Positions 7,867-25,266 of a DNA stretch of 25,487 bases are shown here, piece by piece; the stretch's first letter is position 1; each line of letters begins with the position of its first letter. A program made the translations under genes and the position numbers. The notes under the pieces were generated by a model. It had not been told where the DNA came from. It searched no databases and saw only the letters and a program-made list of their open reading frames with translations. The DNA comes from a virus, in IMG/VR virus record IMGVR_UViG_3300035698_000258, positions 1 through 25,487 of that record, one strand, 5' to 3'.

Positions 7867-8729
7867 TACAGGATAACCTCGTAGCGGCTTAGGGTCTGCC
7901 TAATGTATGCTGACTCGACTCCGCCGAATGTGGCCGACCAGTCGCCGATCCGCTCTTGCTTGATTGCGCTATCCCTCTTGCGCCCCTTGAACCATGCGTT
8001 CGCGATTTCGATTGCCGCTTGCTCGATTTCGAATGGAAGCGTCTGGCACGATAGAGTGACGGTCGCTCCGGCTGCTTCTGTATTCGTCGGGGTTTCCACG
8101 ACGGTAATAACCAAGTCTGTTCGGCTTGCCACGGTGTACTCGGTGTTAAGTCCAGTTGCCGCAAAACCTCCAAACGTAACGAAGTCTCCAGCCACAAGTA
8201 GCGGCCACTTACCCGAAGTACGCGTGAAAGTTTTCGCGGATGCATCACTAGCGCAATCAACGAAAGCGTCAGCGAGTAAGATATTGTCAGATGGTAGAAG
8301 GTATCCATAAGTGTAAGTAAGGGAGTAGTCATCATCGCCAGCCTGTGGAAGGTAGTGCATTTCGATTAAAGACCGTACCGGAATGTTTTCTCTCCAGCCG
8401 TCCTCCTTGAAAACGATTCCAGCGCGGCCGTCGTCATAAATCTCATACTCGGTCGTCGCTACTGTCGCGGCGTTTAGCGTTAGAGCCCCTAGGCTGACTA
8501 TTGGAAACCGGCTCATCGCTTTTGATGTGTTGCTGTTGCCGTTAAAGGTCTCGGTTACAACTTCACGACCGAATCTGCGACGGCATCGGCTTTCGATGTT
8601 ACTCGTTACTCGCTCTATAAGGCTGGCGAGAAAAACGTCATCACTATCGCCTGGATCTATCGCCACCTTCAGATCGGCGAGAGTCACTAAGTTGCTGTTC
8701 AGTCTTTTAGTCGTAACCGTGAGGCTCAT
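7866..8729 (-). CDS. Head-tail connector (gp6 / phiE125 gp8-like) with inserted domain
   Basis: A 287-residue protein. Residues 15-60 (TLADLKVAIDPGDSDDVFLASLIERVTSNIESRCRRRFG type) give the connector pattern 'sl.e.K..l.i....dD..l..lI..a...ie...gr'. Residues about 75-145 hold PIVSLGALTLN, YEIYDDGRAGIVF and a LTYTYGYLLPSDN strand. In relatives this strand is followed almost directly by 'lP..ieqA...la..w...R.....'. Here LPFEIEQAAIEIANAWFKGRKRD appears only at residue 231, so about 80 residues (149-230) are inserted. The insert is beta-like and contains FTRTSGKWP, GDFVTFGGFAATGLNTEYTV and VTLSC. The protein forms the ring below the portal. The start overlaps the small upstream gene by 4 bases. 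Confidence 0.82.
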   Translation of the reverse strand: MSLTVTTKRLNSNLVTLADLKVAIDPGDSDDVFLASLIERVTSNIESRCRRRFGREVVTETFNGNSNTSKAMSRFPIVSLGALTLNAATVATTEYEIYDDGRAGIVFKEDGWRENIPVRSLIEMHYLPQAGDDDYSLTYTYGYLLPSDNILLADAFVDCASDASAKTFTRTSGKWPLLVAGDFVTFGGFAATGLNTEYTVASRTDLVITVVETPTNTEAAGATVTLSCQTLPFEIEQAAIEIANAWFKGRKRDSAIKQERIGDWSATFGGVESAYIRQTLSRYEVIL

Positions 8730-8851
8730 TTCGTCACCATCTTCCTGTCGTTGTCTCGGACGGATCGCCGTTTCTCGTCCTTGGTTGATGGAGCAGGTGC
8801 CGGCCTTGTATCAGGCCGGATCTGTTTGTTCGGCGCGTCTGGATTAGCCAT
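8726..8851 (-). CDS. Small basic protein, 41 residues (unknown)
   Basis: A short frame from ATG 8851 to TGA 8726 fits exactly between its neighbours. It overlaps the upstream gene's stop by 8 bases, and its own stop overlaps the connector start as ATGA. The protein starts MANPDAPNKQIRPDTRPAPA and ends in a highly charged DEKRRSVRDNDRKMVTK stretch. It is probably disordered. GAAGAG stands a few bases upstream of the start, a weak ribosome binding site. It may serve translational coupling or be a small structural factor. I recognise no family. The frame also contains a 7-bp perfect inverted repeat (8800-8806 with 8813-8819). Confidence 0.55.
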   Translation of the reverse strand: MANPDAPNKQIRPDTRPAPAPSTKDEKRRSVRDNDRKMVTK

Positions 8852-9605
8852 TGAGCTCTTCATCCAGATCTTGCGTCACCTCGATCAGCGCTTCTAGCTC
8901 GGCAACGTTGTTGTTAACTGAATCGGCAACCGAGTCGTCAGCAGAGAACTCATCAATCGCAACTTCGCGAGCCTTTCGAGATTCGATGTGCGATTCCGAT
9001 AGAGCAACCGCAGACGCCTCGGCCTCTTCAACCGCTTTTGCCGCTTCGTCGACTAGAGCCTGTCCGGCCTCTTTGTCAGAAGCTGACTTAAGGGATTTGT
9101 TCGCCTTCGTCAGGTTGCTCTTGCACTCTTTGATCTGGGCCTGAAGAACCGCAGCCGCATCGTCTTCAGCAACGCAAAGTTTCGCGTCTTCTTCGACCAG
9201 AATGTCAGGGCTGGAAGCGTTGGCTTTTAGATCTATCTCGGCAGATTCGAACGCCTCTTGGGTCAGCTGATCGGCTTCGTTCACCAGATCCTGAACCTCC
9301 TTTAGCTGCTTAGCGATCAACTGCTTGGCATCGTTGGATCGATTGATAGCGGCGATGGCCTTGGTGACTGCTCGGCCAGTATTGGTTTCGGCGTTAGCGT
9401 CACGATGCATCACAGCCTTGCCGCTGTTGATTAGCTTCGCTGCGACTGATCGAGGGAAGCGACCGATCTCTTCAGCGTTTAAGCCATTGGCGTTGACCAG
9501 AAGTCTTACCATTACTTTTTGCTCGGGCCCTTGCGCTACCGCTTCAGGCATTGACGACATACTCGCGCCCTTAGCAGAACCAGATCCAGAATTAGTGTTC
9601 GTCAT
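8844..9605 (-). CDS. Helical Ala/Glu-rich structural-module protein (unknown)
   Basis: A 253-residue protein. Residues about 30-70 form a short module (KVMVRLLVNANGLNAEEIGRFPRSVAAKLINSGKAV) that resembles small phage proteins with 'Gl...eig.fp...A..Li..GkA'. A similar logic appears in the 52-residue gene just upstream (GDSAMLDADAAAKVVKTGEA). From about residue 85 to the end the protein is almost entirely charged and alanine-rich helix (KQLIAKQLKEVQDLVNEADQ, EEAEASAVALSESHIESR), with strong coiled-coil potential and an acidic end. It may be a scaffold- or head-associated protein. The TAATG overlap with the upstream gene indicates coupled translation. No enzyme motif was seen. Confidence 0.7.
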   Translation of the reverse strand: MTNTNSGSGSAKGASMSSMPEAVAQGPEQKVMVRLLVNANGLNAEEIGRFPRSVAAKLINSGKAVMHRDANAETNTGRAVTKAIAAINRSNDAKQLIAKQLKEVQDLVNEADQLTQEAFESAEIDLKANASSPDILVEEDAKLCVAEDDAAAVLQAQIKECKSNLTKANKSLKSASDKEAGQALVDEAAKAVEEAEASAVALSESHIESRKAREVAIDEFSADDSVADSVNNNVAELEALIEVTQDLDEELNG

Positions 9606-15981: not shown

Positions 15982-17370
15982 TCATACTAGGTCATCCCAA
16001 CTAAAAGAGACTTTACCAAGGAAAAGATGAGTAAGCGCCCATACCAGAGCGTCGAGCCTATCAGGACTTTTCTTTGAGTCAAAAGGTGTGTAAGTGGTTA
16101 GTTCATCTTCCATCTCCGCTAAGCCTTCTGCGTGTCCTATGAGGCCTTGCTCGTACAAAGCTGATACCGGCTCTGCTCGCGCATATTTGCCCCTAGATGC
16201 TCTGACCTTGAAGATCTTACCTTTGTAACCGTTTAACCGCAACAGATCCTCTACCATGTCGCCGCCTTGGTTGGTCTCTACGACTACCGCATCGCAGTCA
16301 TACTTGTCGTATAGACGGATCGCTTCCTTGACACATTCATTGGGAGAGTCTTTAAAACTGGCGTCCTCGTGAACGTAGCCCTCGAACCGCTCGTTCTGTC
16401 TGACGCCTGAATCCGTAGAGGTTTCGACCATTTCCCCGTGGTAGATCCCAGCGCAAACGAGACCCCATAAACTAGACTCTTCTTCATTGCTGGTTGCTGG
16501 ATCGATTCCTATTACGTTTCTAATCAAGACATCCGGCTCTGGTTTACCCTTCGCGGAATCGATCATACCCATATCCCAGAGCGCGCCCTCGACATCGGTT
16601 AGGAATCGACCGTGCAGGAATCGCTCGCGCTGGCGCTTGGGTAGCGATCCGAGAATCTTAAGATAGTCCTCGGGCAGGTTCGCCATGTTATCGATGGGGT
16701 TCATGAACAGATGTGCGTAGTCTGTCTCGAAATCCTCAACGTCGAGATTTTCTGGATCTTCAGGAATCTTGCCTAGAATAAATAACTGATACGACCAGTG
16801 CCTAGATGTCGGCGGATTGCAGTCAAAGAATGCGCGGAGCGGCAAGCCGGAGTTCTCGGCGAGTCGAGTCATCGCCATTGCTATGCTGTCCCACGATAGC
16901 TGCGACGACTCATTAAAATAGATCGTGCTGTACTCGGTTCCTAGAATCTTTTCCGTTCGCTCTTTGTCATCCAGACCGCCGAACCAGATCTGAGATCCAT
17001 TAGGCAATTCCACATACCAGTCTTGCCGGTTTAGACATGACGCCATCGGTGGCAGCTGGGGGAAGCACTGACTCCAAACCTTTGGCATCGTGTCGAGAAC
17101 GATTGCGTTCTTAACTGCGTTGAAGTGCTTACGCAAAACGATGTGACGCGAGTTAGGGCAGAGCGAGGCTCGCATGATGATGTTGCGGATTGTAATGAAC
17201 GTCTTGCCAGATCGAGATCCACCGACAAGCAGAACGTTCTTTATGTCGGCCTGAAGCTCGGTCGCGAGTTCTTGCTTCGGGGTTTTCTTGAACGGCAAGA
17301 TCTTAGCCGTCTTGTGAAACGGCTTTTGCTTTGCGTTGATCGATTTAAGTAATAGATTTGCCGCTGCCAT
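15982..17370 (-). CDS. Terminase large subunit
   Basis: A 462-residue protein. The N-terminal ATPase has NVLLVGGSRSGKTF (Walker A at 50-57), IVLRKHFNAVKNAI, STIYFNESSQL (Walker B plus catalytic glutamate at 148-154), LRAFFDCNPPTSRHW and the arginine-rich LPKRQRERFLHGRF. The C-terminal RNase-H-like nuclease has GIDPATSN (D290), AVVVETNQGGDMVEDLL (E365) and SPDRLDALVWAL (D437/D440), the expected metal-binding acidic residues. It translocates and cuts phage DNA during packaging. An in-frame TAA 15-17 bases before the ATG fixes the start to within a few codons. No strong ribosome binding site precedes it. The small subunit gene is not adjacent; three genes lie between. Confidence 0.95.
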   Translation of the reverse strand: MAAANLLLKSINAKQKPFHKTAKILPFKKTPKQELATELQADIKNVLLVGGSRSGKTFITIRNIIMRASLCPNSRHIVLRKHFNAVKNAIVLDTMPKVWSQCFPQLPPMASCLNRQDWYVELPNGSQIWFGGLDDKERTEKILGTEYSTIYFNESSQLSWDSIAMAMTRLAENSGLPLRAFFDCNPPTSRHWSYQLFILGKIPEDPENLDVEDFETDYAHLFMNPIDNMANLPEDYLKILGSLPKRQRERFLHGRFLTDVEGALWDMGMIDSAKGKPEPDVLIRNVIGIDPATSNEEESSLWGLVCAGIYHGEMVETSTDSGVRQNERFEGYVHEDASFKDSPNECVKEAIRLYDKYDCDAVVVETNQGGDMVEDLLRLNGYKGKIFKVRASRGKYARAEPVSALYEQGLIGHAEGLAEMEDELTTYTPFDSKKSPDRLDALVWALTHLFLGKVSFSWDDLV

Positions 17371-18126: not shown

Positions 18127-18329
18127 GGCTTATCCTCACACGCCAGCTTCTGGCTTTCAGGGATTGGGGGAAGGCACTGAATGATCTGCCCGACAGGAGC
18201 GTTAATCCGGTCGCCGACCTCTGGGCCAGACTCATCGGCGACAGCGCAACCAGCTAGAAAAACCAGCAACGACGATAACAGTATAACGACCAGAGCAAAC
18301 ACCAGAGCATCAGAAACTTCAGACTTCAT
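18123..18329 (-). CDS. Small lipoprotein (outer-membrane spanin-like candidate)
   Basis: A 68-residue protein. After a charged MKSEVSDA start comes a hydrophobic stretch (LVFALVVILLSSLLVF) and then the lipobox LAGC, with C28 as the lipidated cysteine. The mature part is only about 41 residues and contains GPEVGDRINAPVGQIIQC and PPIPES, with a second and third cysteine. Size, lipobox and proline content would suit an Rz1-like outer-membrane spanin, but no clear Rz partner is visible in the window. It could instead be a superinfection-exclusion lipoprotein. GGAG stands 6 bases before the ATG. It overlaps the small terminase gene by 11 bases and the protease start by 4. Confidence 0.65.
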   Translation of the reverse strand: MKSEVSDALVFALVVILLSSLLVFLAGCAVADESGPEVGDRINAPVGQIIQCLPPIPESQKLACEDKP

Positions 18330-18870
18330 CGCTCTCTCCCGTGTCTGCTATTAAACCCGCCAACCTAAGATCCGCGGCATCAGCATAAACCGCGATCTCG
18401 CCCTCGATATGATGATCGACTCGATCTTTCCAGTTCCCGGGATCACGGTTGTTCAGGTAATACTTCGCCGCTTGGAAGTTGCCAGCCGTTCCCATCCTGA
18501 ACACCGCATTCGTCATAGCTGCTATGCCCTGACTCTTACCCGCCGTTAGCGCTGCCTGAAATTCCTCGTTCCTATGACGGTTCGCCACCAGAGTTTTAAT
18601 GTTCACCTTCAGCGCATCTGCTATCTGCTGCTCCGTAAGCCCTTGAGCCGCAAGCGTTCTCACCTGCTCGATGTCGAGATCAATCGGCGGCCGCCCAACA
18701 GGCTTAGGCGGGGGCGCGGGTTTTTTCGGGGCTTTCGGCTTAGCTCTCGACTTCCGTTTATACGGAGCCTTTGCGGTCGCTGCCTTTGCCTTCGGCTTCG
18801 GCTTTGACGCTCCCTTTGCCTTGGCTTTTGCCTTGGCTTTTCCTGCCACTGTCTGCTTAGGGATCTTCAT
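18319..18870 (-). CDS. Terminase small subunit with histone-H1-like N-terminal tail
   Basis: A 183-residue protein. Residues 1-60 are a Lys/Ala/Pro tail (GKAKAKAKAKG, KPKPKAKAATAKAP, PKAPKKPAPPPKP), ending in an AT-hook-like GRPP. Residues about 64-96 carry a helix-turn-helix (VRTLAAQGLTEQQIADALKVNIKTL). Then AAMTNAVFRMGTAGNFQAAKYYLNNRDPGNWKD (about 116-148) matches the C-terminal part of small terminases ('al...A..Gn..AakfyLknR.p..W.D'). It would bind the packaging initiation site and regulate the large subunit. The basic tail is unusual for the family and should bind DNA non-specifically. The start overlaps the upstream stop by 4 bases. Confidence 0.78.
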   Translation of the reverse strand: MKIPKQTVAGKAKAKAKAKGASKPKPKAKAATAKAPYKRKSRAKPKAPKKPAPPPKPVGRPPIDLDIEQVRTLAAQGLTEQQIADALKVNIKTLVANRHRNEEFQAALTAGKSQGIAAMTNAVFRMGTAGNFQAAKYYLNNRDPGNWKDRVDHHIEGEIAVYADAADLRLAGLIADTGESDEV

Positions 18871-19056: not shown

Positions 19057-19392
19057 TTAACCAGCCTCCAGCTCTGCTTCTGACTGGCTGTAGATCGCGC
19101 TCATTATGTAGGCGAGCTTCGACTCTGCATCGGCGTCCGTCGATTCCAGTCGCTGGATCTCGACCAGTAACTTTTGATGGATCAGCTCCCTCTTGCGAAA
19201 GACCTTGTTCACGTCCTGCAGGGCGCTGCAATGAGTAATGGAAGCCGCTCGCTCTTTCCTTACCATCTGGATATCCGACTCTAGGCCGACGACTATTCGC
19301 TTCAAGCGATCTACATCGTTACACTTTGCGCCGTGGTCAGGGAGAAACACGCCACAGCTATCACAGATCACGTTCCGGTTGTGACTACTCAT
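19057..19392 (-). CDS. Zinc-finger / coiled-coil small protein
   Basis: From the preferred ATG at 19392 (GGGG about 9 bases upstream, 8-base overlap with the ParB gene) the protein has 111 residues: MSSHNRNVICDSCGVFLPDHGAKC and on. A longer start at 19431 is possible but lies deep in the upstream gene. The CxxC plus later His and Cys near residues 10-24 could bind one zinc. The rest is a helix with heptad-like leucines and charges (DVDRLKRIVVGLESDIQMVRKER, HQKLLVEIQRLES). It may be a DNA-binding or adaptor protein for the ParB/modification cluster. Function unknown. Confidence 0.65.
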   Translation of the reverse strand: MSSHNRNVICDSCGVFLPDHGAKCNDVDRLKRIVVGLESDIQMVRKERAASITHCSALQDVNKVFRKRELIHQKLLVEIQRLESTDADAESKLAYIMSAIYSQSEAELEAG

Positions 19393-19969
19393 CTGACAAC
19401 CCCATCTGCTCGATGATGTAGGCTCGATCAACCTGATACGTCTCGCTGCAATGAGGACAACTCAATTCGAGGAAATCCACTTCTCGGGCTTCGCCTCCTG
19501 CCGAAAACTTGTTCGCCAGATCGTTACCCCTGCTTACAATCTGCTCTGCCGTTATCGCTGCAACGTTTACGCCGACTGAATCGTCGAGGATCTTGGACAG
19601 GTCCATCTTGCCGAAGTAGATCTGGAACGCATCGATGTCAATGACCTCGCGCAACTCCTGAGTAAGAGCGTCCATATCCCAATCGGCCAGCTCGCTCGTT
19701 TTGTTATCGATGATCCTAAGTCGAGTCACCTGATCGTCGGTCAGATCATCAGCAACCTTGCACGACGCCTTAGCTCTGCCCAGCTGCTTCAGCGCCTTGT
19801 AACGAGTGTGACCGACGATGATGACGTTGTTCTTGTCGAGAATCAGATCCTGATACTGATCAAACTCTTCAATCGATGCAACCACGGCAGCAATCGCTTT
19901 CTCGTTCTTACGAGGATTTCTCCAGTAAGGCTTGATCTGGGTGATCGGTATCATCTTAGACTTGTTCAT
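19385..19969 (-). CDS. ParB-domain protein with C-terminal CxxC (second ParB)
   Basis: A 194-residue protein. Residues 5-100 form a ParB/Sulfiredoxin-like domain: IPITQIKPYWRNPRKNEKAI, NNVIIVGHTRYKALKQLG with the GHTRYKA nucleotide/phosphate-binding box at about 53-59, and QVTRLRIIDNKTSELADWD. This is the version usually fused to, or encoded beside, phage DNA methyltransferases, but here no methyltransferase domain follows. Residues about 101-165 are helical. The C-terminus has LSCPHCSETYQVD, a single CxxC that could be a half zinc site completed by a partner or dimer. The start overlaps the winged-helix gene's stop as TAATG. ParB domains of this class can bind CTP or ATP; activity here is unproven. 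Confidence 0.83.
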   Translation of the reverse strand: MNKSKMIPITQIKPYWRNPRKNEKAIAAVVASIEEFDQYQDLILDKNNVIIVGHTRYKALKQLGRAKASCKVADDLTDDQVTRLRIIDNKTSELADWDMDALTQELREVIDIDAFQIYFGKMDLSKILDDSVGVNVAAITAEQIVSRGNDLANKFSAGGEAREVDFLELSCPHCSETYQVDRAYIIEQMGLSDE

Positions 19970-20193
19970 TAATTCATTCCGTTAGTTGATAGGTAGTCTT
20001 CGCCAAGAGCTGTTATCTTGTAATTGCCGCCGCTGTCTTTTGTAGCCAGACCTTTAGCAACGAGCTTTTCCATGTGCCGCTTCGTAATCGCCTGAGTCGT
20101 CCAGACCCATCCGCAGTTTAACCGCCAACCCTTGTGATGCCTCAACTGTTCAAGCACTAGGATCTGGGTCTTGCCGATTACAATAACAGTCAT
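19969..20193 (-). CDS. Small winged-helix DNA-binding protein candidate
   Basis: A 74-residue protein. The sequence TQILVLEQLRHHKGWRL, WVWTTQAITKRHMEKLVAKGLATKD, GGNYKITALGEDYL follows helix - helix - recognition helix - wing order. 'L...G.......g..Y.IT..G...L' is common to winged-helix regulators. AAGGA lies about 6 bases before the ATG. It overlaps both ParB genes (4 bases upstream, 1 downstream), so it is embedded in the same operon. It could regulate the cluster or help direct the ParB proteins to DNA. Confidence 0.65.
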   Translation of the reverse strand: MTVIVIGKTQILVLEQLRHHKGWRLNCGWVWTTQAITKRHMEKLVAKGLATKDSGGNYKITALGEDYLSTNGMN

Positions 20194-20744
20194 GTCTTTT
20201 CCTTCTGCTCCTTCCTGATCTTCAGCTGCCGATCAGTGATCCAATCCTTCTGGTACTCGACATCCTCGAACAGCTTGCTGAAGCCGGTGACGTGCTTGAG
20301 TCGAACCAGCTCGTCAACTGTCAGGCCGATCTCATTGCAAATCGCCTCGTCATCCCAGCCGTTGTCGAGCATCTGGAATACCATGCTACCCATGCCAGCA
20401 ATCGAGTGCTTGCCTCTGGCTCGATTGTGTCGAACCGTCGAAGCCATCCGATCATTGATCGACTTCTCGATGACAACAATAGGCACCTTGCCGCCTGTCG
20501 ATTTCAAGATGTCTGGGTAGTTACGAGCGGTGGTGTATCGGTGGAACCCATCAACGATAATGTACTTCTTAATCTTCTCGTCGTAGATCGTGACAATCGG
20601 CTGGGTGTAGCCGTCATGTGAGATCGAGGTGTACAGCAGCGTCATTTCATTTGTCGCCACTGAATTAGGATTGTAATCGTTGGCCTGAACCTGATCGATC
20701 GGAACCCAGAGTACCTTGTTAATCGGATGATCTTTGATCGCCAT
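20190..20744 (-). CDS. IbrB-like ParB-domain protein
   Basis: A 184-residue protein. It has VPIDQVQANDYNPNSVATNEM (14-34), then SISHDGYTQPIV, YIIVDGFHRYTTAR (61-74) with the ParB-type DGFHR box, STVRHNRARGKHSI (102-115), and a helix-turn-helix region ending in LTVDELVRLKHVTGFSKLF. 'aNdYNPN', 'VDGfHR', 'RHNrARG.H' and 'dE..RLK...G' are the signature of IbrB, partner of the PAPS-reductase-like IbrA in E. coli, where the pair activates prophage genes. Here the IbrA-like gene lies just upstream, separated by one 60-codon gene, with TAATG overlap. The biochemical function of IbrAB is unresolved as far as I know. Confidence 0.85.
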   Translation of the reverse strand: MAIKDHPINKVLWVPIDQVQANDYNPNSVATNEMTLLYTSISHDGYTQPIVTIYDEKIKKYIIVDGFHRYTTARNYPDILKSTGGKVPIVVIEKSINDRMASTVRHNRARGKHSIAGMGSMVFQMLDNGWDDEAICNEIGLTVDELVRLKHVTGFSKLFEDVEYQKDWITDRQLKIRKEQKEKT

Positions 20745-20926
20745 TAAATTTGAACCTCTAGTCTGATTACAGGGATTCCGTCCGTTCCGCTTATGCCGGT
20801 ATGGCGAACGATGTTCAAATCCAAGTGCTTAATGCAGTCGCCGCTTTCAGACCGAAGATCAAGCAGAGCGGAATTTATTTTTTCCTCGGCATCTTCAATT
20901 AACTCCCTTAACTCACTAACCGTCAT
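20744..20926 (-). CDS. Small acidic protein between IbrA- and IbrB-like genes
   Basis: A 60-residue protein starting MTVSELRELIEDAEEKINSA, an amphipathic acidic helix, followed by a beta-like end (VRHTGISGTDGIPVIRLEVQI). GGGGTGAG lies 4 bases before the ATG, which overlaps the IbrA-like stop; its own stop overlaps the IbrB-like start. It could be a small bridging subunit. I recognise no family. Confidence 0.65.
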   Translation of the reverse strand: MTVSELRELIEDAEEKINSALLDLRSESGDCIKHLDLNIVRHTGISGTDGIPVIRLEVQI

Positions 20927-22044
20927 AACTCACCCCTCTTAATTTTCTTACGAATGTCGTAAACCTGTGGCGCTGCCCACCAATTCGATATCTTAATGCC
21001 TTCCCAATCGTTCGTTAGAATCGACGTGATCGCCAGACTATAAATCCGCCTAGGGAAGTACGGCTCCAGAAAAGCGATCCTGTCGAAGTGCTTGCGGAAA
21101 CGAGCTTTCCAATCCTCATTATCGATCAGCTTGTCTAGGAGATAGTCGCGATACTCTTTCCAGTCCTTAAACATATACGGCAGATCTTTAGGGAAGTAGT
21201 CGGCGGCTCCCATCTTGCCGGCCATGTCGATTCCCTCGATTCTCTGAGTCAGCTTCACGTAGGTTTCTGGTTCAGCCTCCTGCATATAAAACAGATGCAT
21301 GATTGCGGTTTCGTGATGGACGTTCGAAACACGCATATCGCGGACGGGAATTCCGTAAGCGTATTGCACGTCGTAGATCTTGTTGTAACGCCAGTTGTTA
21401 TTGTGAATCGCCGCCCAGATATCGTAGTAACTCCAATTCCAGATCGGATACATGACGATCTTGTTCACAGATCCTTTAGGCCCGTATCGTCTGCCCCAAG
21501 TCTCTCCGCCATAGGTATGACCCTGAGTCATTCCCATCGCTCTAGATGGCGACTCTTCAGCCCTGACTCCTGCGATATAGCAAACCTTCTTGTCGGGAAA
21601 CGTCTTGGTTAAAATCGCCTCGAATAGCTTTGTAAACCTGTCCTGCTTAAACGTATTCTCTTTGATCGCTCGGTCCCACTTAGGACGCATCCACTGATCT
21701 TCTTCTTCTGGATTCCAGCAATTCAGCCAATGCTCTCCGGTTTGAGTCGATGTTGCGTTGAATAGCCGAAACGGAATCTGGTACCACATCGGTTCGACTT
21801 CTGGCTGCTCCATGATGTACGTCACCATGTCCACCGTTGCTTGCCACTCCGCCTCCTGATCTAGCCAGATGACTTTCAAGGGCAACCGACCTTTCTCTAT
21901 GGCTACCATTTTGCACAGCTCAAACACGACGGTGGAGTCTTTGCCGCCCGACACCTGAACCACGACTTCTTCAAATTCATCGAACAGCCACCGGATGCGA
22001 TCCAGCGCACCGTCGAACACGTTTTGTTTCAGGTAGAGCTTCAA
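20923..22044 (-). CDS. IbrA-like PAPS-reductase-family (PP-loop) protein
   Basis: A 373-residue protein with a TTG start (GAGGA 7 bases upstream, 4-base overlap with the oxygenase-like gene). VVVQVSGGKDSTVVFELC holds the PP-loop SGGKDST (32-38) that binds ATP. KVIWLDQEAEW, YIAGVRAEESPSR (about 162-174) and YPIWNWSYYDIWAAI complete the adenylation domain. The later part (DMRVSNVHHETAIMHL and a helical tail) resembles the DUF3440-type region of IbrA proteins. PAPS reductases proper carry an active-site ECG-x-H motif at the C-terminus, absent here, so it is unlikely to reduce PAPS. Probable chemistry is adenylation of a substrate, as in tRNA or DNA thiolation enzymes. Paired with the IbrB-like ParB gene. 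Confidence 0.87.
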   Translation of the reverse strand: MKLYLKQNVFDGALDRIRWLFDEFEEVVVQVSGGKDSTVVFELCKMVAIEKGRLPLKVIWLDQEAEWQATVDMVTYIMEQPEVEPMWYQIPFRLFNATSTQTGEHWLNCWNPEEEDQWMRPKWDRAIKENTFKQDRFTKLFEAILTKTFPDKKVCYIAGVRAEESPSRAMGMTQGHTYGGETWGRRYGPKGSVNKIVMYPIWNWSYYDIWAAIHNNNWRYNKIYDVQYAYGIPVRDMRVSNVHHETAIMHLFYMQEAEPETYVKLTQRIEGIDMAGKMGAADYFPKDLPYMFKDWKEYRDYLLDKLIDNEDWKARFRKHFDRIAFLEPYFPRRIYSLAITSILTNDWEGIKISNWWAAPQVYDIRKKIKRGEL

Positions 22045-22553
22045 GGTTTATCCTCGGCAAATGTGTGATCGTTACCCCACTTGATCAAGCGAGGAAAAAT
22101 CTGGCCTGAATCCATAGGCTCGTGGCTGTCCATCGATAATGCGACGAACATGCCGCCGTTCTTAGGCGTCGGGCTGTAAACTTCATGTGGAGAGTGCGTG
22201 TCGAGCTGATAGACCATGCCGCGAACGAGAGGTGTCTCGACCTCATCACGGCCCCGCATTATCAGTCCGTCAGTTCTCAACATGATCTGTAGCGTGTAAC
22301 GAGGGAAGCCTCGATCTTCATGCAGGCCAATCGGCTTCCTGATTCCAATGTAGTGTTCGTCAAATACTTTCGTCTTAGGAGTGCGCCCCCATGTCTGGAG
22401 TGACGCCTTGCCCGATGGGAATTTGGCTTCAGCCATTTCATCGGTTATCACTTCAAGATGACCGATAAGGACTTTACTCAGCATCCAGAATTCCATCACG
22501 GGATTCCGCCTCTGGTCCTCTTTCAACTCTGCATCCCATTTGACGAACGGCAT
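22041..22553 (-). CDS. Probable 2OG-Fe(II)-type / cupin-fold oxygenase
   Basis: A 170-residue protein. Residues 66-100 read EHYIGIRKPIGLHEDRGFPRYTLQIMLRTDGLIM; H78-x-D80 is a candidate metal-binding HxD. After a LVRGMVYQLDTHSPHEVYSP segment (109-127), H120 or H123 is the distal histidine 40-45 residues later, the normal spacing of a double-stranded beta-helix dioxygenase. The 'G..y..d....H.v' shape is that of the distal strand. No arginine follows at the usual 2-oxoglutarate-binding place. It might therefore use another co-substrate contact or be a related cupin. It lies between methyltransferase and IbrA-like genes with 1- and 4-base overlaps, which suggests a nucleic-acid hydroxylase role. 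Identity with a named family is not certain. Confidence 0.62.
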   Translation of the reverse strand: MPFVKWDAELKEDQRRNPVMEFWMLSKVLIGHLEVITDEMAEAKFPSGKASLQTWGRTPKTKVFDEHYIGIRKPIGLHEDRGFPRYTLQIMLRTDGLIMRGRDEVETPLVRGMVYQLDTHSPHEVYSPTPKNGGMFVALSMDSHEPMDSGQIFPRLIKWGNDHTFAEDKP

Positions 22554-23197
22554 TACTTGAACCTTTTAAGAGTCTTGAGAAGTCGCTTCTCGTTGAATTC
22601 ATTACCGATAAAATTACAGCCATGATTGATCGCCGCTTGAGCTGTCCAGCCCATCCCGCAACATGGATCGGCAACAACTTGTCCCGGCTTCGTTGTGACC
22701 TTGATGATCTCGTTCACAATAGGAAAGTCGTGTGTCGTGGTTAGCACTGACGGATTGAACTTATGCTTCTTGCTAGTGCCAGCAACGAAACAGATGTTCG
22801 GGGATTGCTTGGAGCCGGATGCGTAAGTCCGGTCAAAGCAGACAATGTTTTGAAGGTACTGGCTCAACATGTCACCGACCATTTCCTTCCACTGCAAACC
22901 ACTTTCCAAAAACACTAGACCGTCCACCGACGCCTCAACCAATACCCGAATTCGATTCAGCAGATCCGCGTACACCAGAGGCTCATAATCGATGTCCAGA
23001 TCAGGATTCATCTTCTTGTTCATGGTGACCCAATACTTCAAGTTGCCATCGCCCCACGGTGGATCGGAGTAGAACACGTTGATAGGTGCCGCAGCCTTGA
23101 ACGAATTCAGCACAACTTTGTGATTGATGTCAGCCTTCGTGATTCGGTGATCGCCTAGTTTAAGAATCGTATTACCGACTACTGTTTCTTCAGCCAT
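22553..23197 (-). CDS. Beta-class DNA methyltransferase, paralogue 2
   Basis: A 214-residue protein. Motif IV, FYSDPPWGDG (DPPW at 45-48), comes before motif I, VADPCCGMGWTAQAA (177-191), the order of beta-class amino-methyltransferases of adenine N6 or cytosine N4. GNEFNEKRLLKT lies at the SAM-pocket end. The region between motifs (60-175) is short, so any target-recognition part must be small or lie in a partner protein. It resembles the next gene upstream at DPPWGDG, KYW, DPCCGMG and GNEFNE, which indicates a tandem duplication followed by divergence. The 19-base overlap with that gene and the TAATG with the next support tight coupling. The base and site modified are unknown. Confidence 0.83.
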   Translation of the reverse strand: MAEETVVGNTILKLGDHRITKADINHKVVLNSFKAAAPINVFYSDPPWGDGNLKYWVTMNKKMNPDLDIDYEPLVYADLLNRIRVLVEASVDGLVFLESGLQWKEMVGDMLSQYLQNIVCFDRTYASGSKQSPNICFVAGTSKKHKFNPSVLTTTHDFPIVNEIIKVTTKPGQVVADPCCGMGWTAQAAINHGCNFIGNEFNEKRLLKTLKRFK

Positions 23198-23835
23198 TTT
23201 TCTAACCTTGTCGTTGTTTTAGTGAGTCGCGCCTCGTTGAACTCGTTGCCACGAAATGACAGGCCGATGTCCAAGCAGGCTTGAGCGGTGTATCCCATGC
23301 CGCAGCAAGGGTCGAATACAATGATCTCGGCCTTCGGGGAAATCTCTCCACTCAACTGCCGGATAATGTCAGTGCAAAACTTCTGCCCGTGGGTCGCCTG
23401 TGGAGCCACATGAGCCGTTTCATATCCGGCCTTAGTAGACGCCACGAATGTCACGGACTCGGCCATCTTCGCCCCTGAGCGATAGATCGTTTTCATTAAC
23501 CGCTTGTTGTGCAGACTAGGAAACGATTCCATCAACTGATCGCCCCATTTGACGCCGGTTTCAATTACCAGCCAGCCATCCACGTTGCCGATGACAAATC
23601 CCTTGATCCTGTCGATCAATGCTTGGTAGGAAAGTGGATCGACGACAAAGCCATTGTTCTGTTTGGCATTGAGGTTCGTCCAGTATTTCATCGAGCCATC
23701 ACCCCAAGGTGGATCGGTGTAGAGAATGTCGATCTTGTCATCACCGATAAGCGCGTCAACGGTAGGGCTTTCAATGCTAGACAGACTGATCTTGTGTGGG
23801 CCGAAAATTTGAACCGCGTTGCGTGGCATCGACAT
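23179..23835 (-). CDS. Beta-class DNA methyltransferase, paralogue 1
   Basis: A 218-residue protein. It has LYTDPPWGDGSMKYW (DPPW at 41-44), a middle with VDGWLVIETGVKWGDQL and SVTFVAST, and VFDPCCGMGYTAQACLDIG (D175 to G181), then GNEFNEARLTKT and a basic helix LEKWLKKQ. Both catalytic and SAM-binding motifs look intact, so this copy is probably active. It is closest to the adjacent downstream gene. Either one protects phage DNA from host restriction, or both form a heterodimer or act at successive steps. AGGAAG is about 9 bases before the ATG, which overlaps the upstream stop as TAATG. Confidence 0.84.
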   Translation of the reverse strand: MSMPRNAVQIFGPHKISLSSIESPTVDALIGDDKIDILYTDPPWGDGSMKYWTNLNAKQNNGFVVDPLSYQALIDRIKGFVIGNVDGWLVIETGVKWGDQLMESFPSLHNKRLMKTIYRSGAKMAESVTFVASTKAGYETAHVAPQATHGQKFCTDIIRQLSGEISPKAEIIVFDPCCGMGYTAQACLDIGLSFRGNEFNEARLTKTTTRLEKWLKKQ

Positions 23836-24128
23836 TAAGGTTTCTTCCTGTCTAGTCCGTAGTCTTTTGCGATGGTCGCGTAAGTTAGACCGGCCTCAAG
23901 TTTGAACGCCTCGATCCGTTCGCACCGAGCGGCTCGCGATTCGGTCGTCCAAGTGTAAGTGTAATTTTTAGCGCCTGGCACTTTCGATCTCAGTTCAATC
24001 TGGATCTCGCCAGTAAGAGCGCATCGACGGCGGAAGTCTGGCAGCGCCAGTTTCTTTCCCTTGTCGTCGAGGTGATGCACAGTCGGCATTGGCTCCCATT
24101 CATGCTTCTGTTTTTTTGGTGCGCCCAT
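23835..24128 (-). CDS. Small protein with C-terminal helix-turn-helix candidate
   Basis: From the preferred ATG at 24128 (AGGA 10 bases upstream) this is 97 residues. A longer start at 24239 gives 134 residues but would overlap the upstream gene by 77 bases and has no ribosome binding site. The sequence has MGAPKKQKHEWEPMPTVHHLDD, RRRCALTGEIQIELRSK, then YTYTWTTESRAARCERIEAF. It ends in LEAGLTYATIAKDYGLDRKKP, a likely helix-turn-helix. It lies directly before the methyltransferase pair, with TAATG overlap, so it may be a regulator or specificity factor for it. No family recognised. Confidence 0.62.
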   Translation of the reverse strand: MGAPKKQKHEWEPMPTVHHLDDKGKKLALPDFRRRCALTGEIQIELRSKVPGAKNYTYTWTTESRAARCERIEAFKLEAGLTYATIAKDYGLDRKKP

Positions 24129-24162
24129 ATCAATCATTTCCTGCCATAGTTGTAATTCGGTT

Positions 24163-24360
24163 TTAGCCGCGGATCGAAACCCACGCCTGAAGCTTTCCGT
24201 CGAAGCGATGTTGCTTGAGGAATTCCTTTTCGTGGGCATCTTTTAATTTTTTAATCTTGGCTTTGAAGTCGGCGTCAGACGGCATCCACATTGGATAGAG
24301 CTGCATACCTTCTTTGCGAAGCTTTGCGGTGTACTTCTGGTTAGGCGTCTGATCAGTCAT
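24163..24360 (-). CDS. Small basic protein, ribbon-helix-helix-like candidate
   Basis: A 65-residue protein with AGGA 7 bases before the ATG. KYTAKLRKEGMQLYPMWMPSDADFKAKIKKL resembles short regulators that read 'ryr..l...Gl....vwvP.e....ik.la', a ribbon-helix-helix-type layout with one strand and two helices. It is strongly basic overall. The likely role is DNA binding or transcription control of the operon that follows. The fold is inferred by eye only. Confidence 0.62.
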   Translation of the reverse strand: MTDQTPNQKYTAKLRKEGMQLYPMWMPSDADFKAKIKKLKDAHEKEFLKQHRFDGKLQAWVSIRG

Positions 24361-24396: not shown

Positions 24397-25266
24397 CTAA
24401 TCTATTACGCCATCCCAATCCGACTCGAGTGCCACTGGCGGAATTCCGGTACTAGATGTTTCATCAATATCGAGCGCGTTCTGGATCGCTGGATCGTCTA
24501 GCAGGTCGATTGGCGCTGCTTCCTGAGTTACCGGCTCTGGCTCAATGCCGCCTGCTGACTTCTCGACTTTAAGCTGCTTGATCGTCGCTTCAAGCTCGTC
24601 CATAAATTTTACAAATTCAACCAGCGATTCCTCGAACCAGACTCGATCCCTATAAATCCGCTCGTTCTGTGACCACGGAACAACGTTGGCCGGCGATCCA
24701 TCTGGAAGAGTCTCATCACTCATCAACTGCTGGCCGACCACAAAGAAATCCCAGTGGGGGACGTCGAATACTTCCATCGATAATTGACACTGGCACCAGT
24801 AATGGTAGACGGCCTCTTTGCATGGAAACCACGCCTCGGGTCCGCGCTTGGACATGCGGAATTGCTTTTTGACTTCAAGACCGGATTCTAGGATCGGCCT
24901 CCCGCCGTGATGAGGCCGGTAGATTAACTTGTCTGGCGAAGCGCCTATGAATGGAATTTCGGGGTGCTGCTGGTACTCTGTCGAGACACCATCAATCACC
25001 TTGCCGGAATTGTCGGCGTAGTACAGGTCGCTGAAACCCAGAACAAACGGCTTGCTCATTTCTATGACTGCCGGCTCCCACGCTATGCCCTCTTCCATTG
25101 CGACGTTAGACGGCCTTGGGCCGATGCCGTAAACCTTCTCGAAGGCTTTCTGTTCAAGGTAGTCTTTTCTGCTCGTCCACGGTGATCGGTCTAATACCGC
25201 AGCGCATCCACTAGCCGTTATTGCCGTAGCTCGGATGCGATTCCATTCCGCTGATCTTTGTAACAT
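24397..25266 (-). CDS. YqaJ-type (lambda exonuclease family) nuclease
   Basis: A 289-residue protein. SAEWNRIRATAITASGCAAVLDRSPW (5-30) matches the YqaJ start 'R...W...R...iTaS..a..lg.s'. EEGIAWEPAVIE (about 58-69) supplies the first acidic residue, IGASPDKLIY (about 107-116) the aspartate of the PD-(D/E)xK site, and LEVKKQFRM the ExK. AVYHYWCQCQLSMEVF provides the later helix with the conserved tyrosine and glutamine. It would resect DNA ends 5' to 3' for single-strand-annealing recombination. The last 60 residues are acidic (PEPVTQEAAPIDLLDD) and probably disordered. GGAGA is 6 bases before the ATG. No annealing-protein gene is visible; it may lie beyond the right edge. Confidence 0.88.
   Translation of the reverse strand: MLQRSAEWNRIRATAITASGCAAVLDRSPWTSRKDYLEQKAFEKVYGIGPRPSNVAMEEGIAWEPAVIEMSKPFVLGFSDLYYADNSGKVIDGVSTEYQQHPEIPFIGASPDKLIYRPHHGGRPILESGLEVKKQFRMSKRGPEAWFPCKEAVYHYWCQCQLSMEVFDVPHWDFFVVGQQLMSDETLPDGSPANVVPWSQNERIYRDRVWFEESLVEFVKFMDELEATIKQLKVEKSAGGIEPEPVTQEAAPIDLLDDPAIQNALDIDETSSTGIPPVALESDWDGVID

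Follow-up and report, generated by a model that had tools for sequence, protein, structure and literature searches.

Which function is served by the tightly packed run of minus-strand genes at positions 19057-24360 of the IMG/VR virus record IMGVR_UViG_3300035698_000258? The run combines two methylases, an oxygenase-like protein, the PP-loop enzyme IbrA and two ParB-domain proteins, IbrB and ParB2. The window, i.e. the whole stretch of DNA that was analysed, comprises the entire record of 25,487 bp and belongs by its gene content to a tailed phage. The cluster is located between a gene for a YqaJ-type recombination nuclease and the terminase genes. We consider it likely that this cassette modifies bases of the phage DNA after replication, before or during packaging, which would allow an escape from restriction. 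This reading is based on a conserved set of genes that lies before the terminase, on the protein families and motifs, and on the swapping of genes between related loci. From these we infer the DNA substrate, the order of the steps and the anti-restriction purpose.

The genes are not scattered over unrelated loci but recur together widely. A search with methylase B as query yielded two relatives, and their contigs also encode IbrA, IbrB and ParB2 beside terminase genes. Locus sets were collected with alignments of the methylase (26 loci), of the oxygenase (35 loci, 32 of them new locus records), of an S-adenosylmethionine (AdoMet) decarboxylase (28 loci) and of IbrB (80 of 552 relatives kept). 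The loci were annotated by profiles built from these same sets and by simple gene calling, so some genes will have been missed. IbrA was present in 24 of the 26 methylase-picked loci, the other two contigs ending just after the methylase, in all 32 oxygenase-picked loci, in 77 of the 80 IbrB-picked loci and in 23 of the 28 decarboxylase-picked loci. Searches begun independently with the methylase, the oxygenase and IbrB led to this same neighbourhood, which occurs in more than 100 viral contigs. This recurrence excludes a chance clustering. The usual order is ParB2, a small protein termed c2, a variable slot, IbrA, IbrB, in some loci ParB2 at this place, and terminase; ibrA and the labelled gene immediately ahead of it share a median of 4 bases. 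Terminases of the related loci belong to several families (clusters c5, c7, c16 and c23), hence the module is not confined to one phage lineage. Two contigs from metagenome-assembled genomes, of Burkholderiales (L123) and of Anaeromyxobacter (L124), carry the neighbourhood and are prophage-like. A pair of genes for a GGACT (gamma-glutamyl cyclotransferase-like) protein and an Amidoligase_2 protein is encoded on the opposite strand just upstream of the module in many phages (L003:5298-6904, L057, L059, L069, L076, L095 and others).

Within the near-constant core of ParB2, c2, IbrA and IbrB, followed by the terminase, the slot holds exchangeable enzymes. These are a DPPW methylase, a glycosyltransferase-like protein (c8; phrog_854, 2.4e-11), a second methylase-like family (c15), a GNAT protein (c17; PF00583), the AdoMet decarboxylase (c13; PF02675, 2.6e-21) and the oxygenase family of the window (c45), besides other glycosyltransferase-like proteins and an HNH-like protein, the latter recognised by eye. 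On an IbrA tree of 84 dereplicated rows, the minimum number of changes was 20 for 21 carriers of the methylase, 20 for 28 of the glycosyltransferase and 15 for 19 of the oxygenase. The slot content thus changes at nearly the highest rate that the IbrA tree permits; a fast exchange of decorating enzymes is what one would expect if phage DNA is under pressure from restriction. Methylase and glycosyltransferase tend to be mutually exclusive, as for alternative decorators: among 26 dereplicated IbrB-picked loci, nine encode the methylase only, ten the glycosyltransferase only, one both and six neither (Fisher p=0.014). The c8 glycosyltransferase accompanies the oxygenase in 29 of 32 oxygenase-picked loci and nearly always directly precedes it. 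The window represents an unusual variant with two methylases and the oxygenase, in which neither c2 nor a glycosyltransferase was recognised. The decarboxylase lies within the module in 26 of its 28 loci, some of which carry a glycosyltransferase in place of the methylase. A constant supply of decarboxylated AdoMet to the DPPW methylase was rejected as a rule, as a methylase was recognised in 18 of the 28 decarboxylase loci. Phage AdoMet decarboxylases of the same family were also observed outside the module, beside a SET-domain protein on viral contigs of about 90 kb (L176:4001-4372 and L177:4001-4372).

More distant versions of the module are present in cultured phages of Actinobacteria, Firmicutes and Bacteroidetes. 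In Microbacterium phage Hendrix, IbrA is encoded at one genome end together with a c8-type glycosyltransferase, another annotated glucosyltransferase, an N-acyltransferase and a methyltransferase that bears a fused c2 domain; IbrB lies at the opposite end. Genes 1-6 of Mycobacterium phage Athena include ParB, IbrA, IbrB and terminase. Arthrobacter phage Laroye carries ParB, IbrA, IbrB, a methyltransferase, a helix-turn-helix protein and terminase, and related gene sets were found in Bacillus phage 031MP002 and Faecalibacterium phage Taranis. Searches of these cultured phages gave no match to the families of the DPPW methylase and the oxygenase. In bacteria, the ibrA-ibrB pair (E. coli G1/2, L186:5001-6856) was matched at the DNA level in 1918 of the 5426 complete E. 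coli genomes, in some cases on plasmids.

IbrA of the window matched PF01507 (4.5e-14), DUF3440 (1.3e-6) and phrog_2302 (1e-77), which bears out its initial assignment as a PP-loop enzyme. The PP-loop motif SGGKDS is conserved to 99-100% in 73 aligned IbrA proteins, among which no cysteine column exceeds 71%. The enzyme is commonly annotated as a 3'-phosphoadenosine 5'-phosphosulphate (PAPS) reductase. CysH depends on the cysteine of its CGLH motif. This motif was found in none of 159 full-length IbrA proteins; a CxxC motif occurs in one of them, and 61 have fewer than four cysteines, including IbrA of the window with three. DndC holds a 4Fe-4S centre by three cysteines and possesses an additional cysteine dyad (PMC10853773). 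The lack of CGLH and of a conserved set of iron-sulphur cysteines makes sulphur assimilation and Dnd-type phosphorothioation unlikely. To judge by its motifs, IbrA is neither CysH nor DndC, at least by their known mechanisms. Where such cysteines are lacking, as in TilS and asparagine synthetase, a PP-loop enzyme typically activates a carbonyl or carboxylate by adenylation and then puts an amine in its place. In a decorator-free IbrA/IbrB locus of Streptococcus phage CHPC1148 (L113:3761-4999), a gene for an SNF2-type helicase overlaps ibrA directly; a similar-looking gene adjoins the pair in Flavobacterium phage FCL-2 (L110:4145-5356).

The two ParB-domain proteins are different, as had been supposed, and belong to separate families (IbrB: phrog_2159, 4.8e-71; ParB2: phrog_620, 7e-43). 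ParB2 carries a C-terminal, zinc-like CPxC motif; among 74 relatives, each of its cysteines is conserved to 99-100%. After the ParB proteins, the module is most often accompanied by c2, a protein of about 90 amino acids (aa) with the signature FAKTMP..PH.Y...YW.M...INR (L003:7075-7356 and more than 100 other loci). It is sometimes fused to an AdoMet-dependent methyltransferase (L002, Hendrix). The model predicted for c2 reached a pLDDT (predicted local distance difference test) of 94, yet no fold match with E below 0.001 was found in the PDB.

Methylases A and B are, from their motifs, small beta-class DNA methyltransferases of the N6/N4 type. Both matched PF01555 (5.7e-9 and 2.2e-3, the second missing the Pfam cut-off) and both possess DPPWGDG and DPCCGMG, the DPPW motif IV standing ahead of the FxGxG-like motif I, so that the two methyltransferases proposed initially are confirmed. 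DPPW is kept in 35 of 35 family members, and CcrM and DpnA are among the solved relatives. At 214-218 aa, the two enzymes hardly have space for a large target-recognition domain. Methylase B is a paralogue of methylase A with 36% identity, and two DPPW methylases in one locus occurred in the window only, among 185 records; a one-clade test, made with a possible tandem duplication in view, gave p 0.53. In locus L017, an intact DPPW methylase is directly followed by a methylase-like protein of the c15 family (8638-9228), whose motif IV is degenerate (SEIAW for DPPW/EPPY); this suggests a pair of an active and an inactive methylase.

The 170-aa protein matched no family profile and had no relatives when searched as a single sequence. 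The idea of an isolated oddity was rejected after an alignment-based search yielded the 35 loci of its family. Residues H78-x-D80...H123 are invariant across 26 aligned members, i.e. the window protein and 25 relatives. The predicted structure is a double-stranded beta-helix (pLDDT 93; predicted template modelling score, pTM, 0.88). Its best PDB matches were plain cupins and Fe(II)/2-oxoglutarate hydroxylases of the AspH and proline-hydroxylase type, with E values of 4e-4 to 1e-3 and a match probability of about 1.0; the TM-scores were modest, and plain cupins scored equally to the hydroxylases. The protein is likely an AspH-like Fe(II)/2-oxoglutarate oxygenase according to this model, in agreement at the level of fold and metal triad with its initial labelling as oxygenase-like. 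In Mycobacterium phage Gaia, IbrB is annotated as a fusion with an ectoine-synthase-like cupin (L111:6302-7201), a parallel to the cupin-fold oxygenase beside IbrA in the window.

With a DNA-acting core clustered with group-transfer decorators, the cassette is, on the evidence of its protein families, a putative phage DNA hypermodification system with its own core. IbrB and ParB2, both of the ParB/Srx fold, may bind DNA, use a nucleotide and open bases to IbrA, as proposed for DpdB and DndB. With the cleavage of ATP to AMP and pyrophosphate, IbrA would then activate either the carbonyl of a base or a carboxylate attached to it and enable the attachment of a nucleophile such as an amine, without iron-sulphur chemistry. 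In the window, the oxygenase would hydroxylate and the two DPPW methylases would methylate the product, while in sister phages glycosyl-, acetyl- or other transferases may add, or trim, decorations instead. We see about even chances for a broader proposal: that IbrA and IbrB, with ParB2 and c2, form the core of an undescribed class of phage DNA hypermodification, in which a cysteine-independent PP-loop enzyme and ParB/Srx partners write a base mark, a fast-swapping slot varies it in a restriction arms race, and to which many viral 'cysH' genes belong.

Published precedents fit a hypermodification of DNA bases. In the phage CmoA/CmoX/CmoY system of 5-carboxymethylcytosine hypermodification (Synechococcus phage S-B43), an asparagine synthetase homologue ligates glycine to carboxymethylcytosine, and ParBc neighbours of unknown role are common (PMC12783734). 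Both clusters comprise a DNA methyltransferase-like enzyme and often a ParBc neighbour, and both would have an ATP-dependent, AMP-forming ligase and a handle with a variable decoration. However, no protein resembling CmoA (a carboxy-S-adenosylmethionine synthase) or the C5-methylase CmoX was recognised among the operon proteins; IbrA is a PF01507/DUF3440 protein and not an asparagine synthetase homologue, the methylases are of the DPPW (N6/N4) type, and the cassette has two ParB proteins as well as exchangeable glycosyltransferases, GNAT protein and 2-oxoglutarate oxygenase. In Dpd, the ParB-like ATPase DpdB takes part in the insertion of 7-deazaguanine (PMC12839542) and partners a base-modifying enzyme in a similar manner, but no tRNA-guanine transglycosylase/DpdA-like or preQ0-pathway protein was recognised in the cassette, and IbrB had no DpdB match in PADLOC. 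Dnd/Ssp systems also join a PP-loop enzyme of the PAPS reductase superfamily with a ParB-superfamily protein acting on DNA; they differ by the iron-sulphur cysteines absent from IbrA and by desulfurase, DndD and DndE, none of which was recognised, while the cassette has decorators. The IbrA/IbrB pairs of E. coli prophages and of Streptococcus, Lactobacillus and Flavobacterium phages are the homologous core pair in fixed proximity, usually without the decorators, c2 and ParB2. Mu Mom-type modification is likewise expressed late, before packaging, and some sister loci have a protein of the GNAT fold in their slot; the window has no GNAT protein.

Several other explanations were weighed. The cassette could act on a target other than phage DNA, such as virion proteins, tRNA or a small nucleotide inhibiting a host defence: glycosyltransferases, acetyltransferases, oxygenases and ligases of these types also build small molecules or decorate proteins, and the amidoligase/GGACT pair lies near several loci. 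This is unlikely in view of the DNA-type DPPW methylases, of the two ParB-domain proteins as the most constant partners and of the helicase that precedes IbrA in the Streptococcus phage. Rather improbable is a gene-expression switch, in which IbrA and IbrB, with ParB2 and the winged-helix protein, co-activate phage genes and the methylases tune promoters. IbrA/B have been described as co-activators of prophage gene expression (PMC4490671; record notes likewise), and a winged-helix candidate is present in the operon, but a switch leaves unexplained the intact ATP-pyrophosphatase motif and the swapped glycosyl-, methyl- and acetyltransferases, AdoMet decarboxylase and oxygenase. The two readings are compatible, since DNA modification could itself alter expression.

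Ordinary anti-restriction methylation, by which the two methylases do all the relevant work beside unrelated late genes, accords with their intact catalytic motifs, and lone methylases are common in phages. We regard it as very improbable, as relatives retain IbrA, IbrB and ParB2 where the methylase is missing or replaced by a glycosyltransferase; the core is thus not an accessory of the methylase. A minimal phosphorothioation with a DndC/SspD-like sulphur transfer by IbrA and IbrB as DndB-like partner is equally hard to uphold. IbrA shows weak matches to DndC (2e-7) and BrxP (4e-9), and DndB is a ParB-superfamily protein (PMC10853773), but a PADLOC scan of ten operon proteins revealed no DndA, desulfurase or DndD/E-like gene, and the missing cysteines led to the rejection of this candidate. 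They also led to the rejection of a sulphur-assimilation helper, in which IbrA as true PAPS reductase (viral cysH) raises the host sulphite. Automatic annotation and PF01507 point that way, and cysH figures among the core viral metabolic genes in viromics papers (PMC9301287, PMC8725595); without CGLH, and with constant ParB partners in a terminase neighbourhood, the proposal is hardly credible.

Several points weigh against a modification of phage DNA by the cassette. IbrA and IbrB occur without decorators in Streptococcus, Lactobacillus and Escherichia phages and in the E. coli genomes with the pair, where only the core activity is possible. The glycosyltransferases could act on virion proteins or a small molecule. 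Sequence searches returned no close structure for IbrA or IbrB, and the 65-, 134- and 60-aa, winged-helix and CxxC genes of the window are without relatives in the collected loci. As the public loci were picked by likeness to module genes, frequencies among them should not be taken for those of a population. The IbrA tree was built by a quick method and contains many weak forks and some truncated rows. To our knowledge, no modified nucleoside has been reported for any phage with the cassette. No literature linking IbrA/IbrB, or a PAPS reductase with ParB, to DNA modification was found in a search of incomplete coverage, and an earlier mention is possible.

If the modification of DNA applies, cysH, often reported as a core viral sulphur gene (e.g. 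PMC9301287), would encode a DNA-modifying enzyme, at least in the IbrA class. Counts of cysH as such a gene are probably inflated by IbrA-class 'PAPS reductase/cysH' genes lacking CGLH. A reinterpretation is likely for many viral 'PAPS reductases', and a gene widely read as sulphur metabolism probably does something else. The long-unexplained IbrA/IbrB pair, present in about one third of complete E. coli genomes, would obtain a biochemical role, and the swappable slot would serve as a catalogue of new candidates, both DNA bases and enzymes.

Table 1. Genes of the cassette and its surroundings in the window, in transcription order.
Feature	Position	Strand	Remarks
YqaJ-type recombination nuclease	24397-25266	minus	
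Protein of 65 aa	24163..24360	minus	operon head
Protein of 134 aa	23835..24239	minus	operon head; uncertain start
Methylase A, 218 aa	23179..23835	minus	PF01555; DPPWGDG...DPCCGMGYTAQ
Methylase B, 214 aa	22553..23197	minus	PF01555; same intact motifs as methylase A
Probable AspH-like Fe(II)/2-oxoglutarate oxygenase, 170 aa	22041..22553	minus	HxD...H; predicted double-stranded beta-helix
IbrA-like PP-loop ATP pyrophosphatase, 373 aa	20923..22044	minus	'PAPS reductase'/DUF3440; SGGKDST and DQE motifs
Small protein of 60 aa	20744..20926	minus	no relatives found
IbrB-like ParB/Srx-domain protein, 184 aa	20190..20744	minus	invariant DGFHR and R-x-N-x-A-R-G-x-H
Winged-helix candidate, 74 aa	19969..20193	minus	phrog_14896, phrog_2440
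ParB2, second ParB/Srx-domain protein	19385..19969	minus	C-terminal CPxC; phrog_620
CxxC/coiled-coil protein	19057..19431	minus	TTG start (ATG at 19392 possible); no relatives found
Open reading frame of 62 aa	18867-19055		between module and small terminase gene
Terminase small subunit-like protein	18319..18870	minus	after module
Terminase large subunit	15982..17370	minus	downstream anchor common to most related loci
Terminase, portal, protease, capsid and tape-measure genes	2.4-18.9 kb	minus	

The initial view of the run as more than a lone methylase, phage-borne, packaging-linked and recurrent, has held. Of its interpretation, the marking of DNA against restriction is the favoured part, while reading of or loading along the marked DNA would be a hypothetical role of the ParB proteins. 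The part that counted the small upstream proteins among the DNA-binding candidates has found no support: no family matched the 134-aa and 65-aa proteins convincingly, and neither has a relative in the roughly 185 loci. A scan of the window for promoters and terminators found no excess over shuffled sequences, a weak promoter-like site at 24395-24367 not rising above chance. The CxxC motif of the last protein, described initially as a zinc/coiled-coil protein, is visible, while no family could be assigned. The winged-helix candidate is supported as such by its match to phrog_2440 (1.8e-5). IbrA and IbrB of the window flank a single open reading frame, that of the 60-aa protein. All listed reading frames are present on the minus strand, and the near-gapless run is confirmed. 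In transcription order, from the 65-aa protein to the CxxC protein, neighbouring genes overlap by 77, 1, 19, 1, 4, 4, 1, 4, 1 and 47 bases, followed by a gap of 1 base. The two overlaps above the 19 bases stated initially, of 77 and 47 bases, depend on the start codons chosen; the ATG at 19392 of the CxxC gene cuts the latter to 8.

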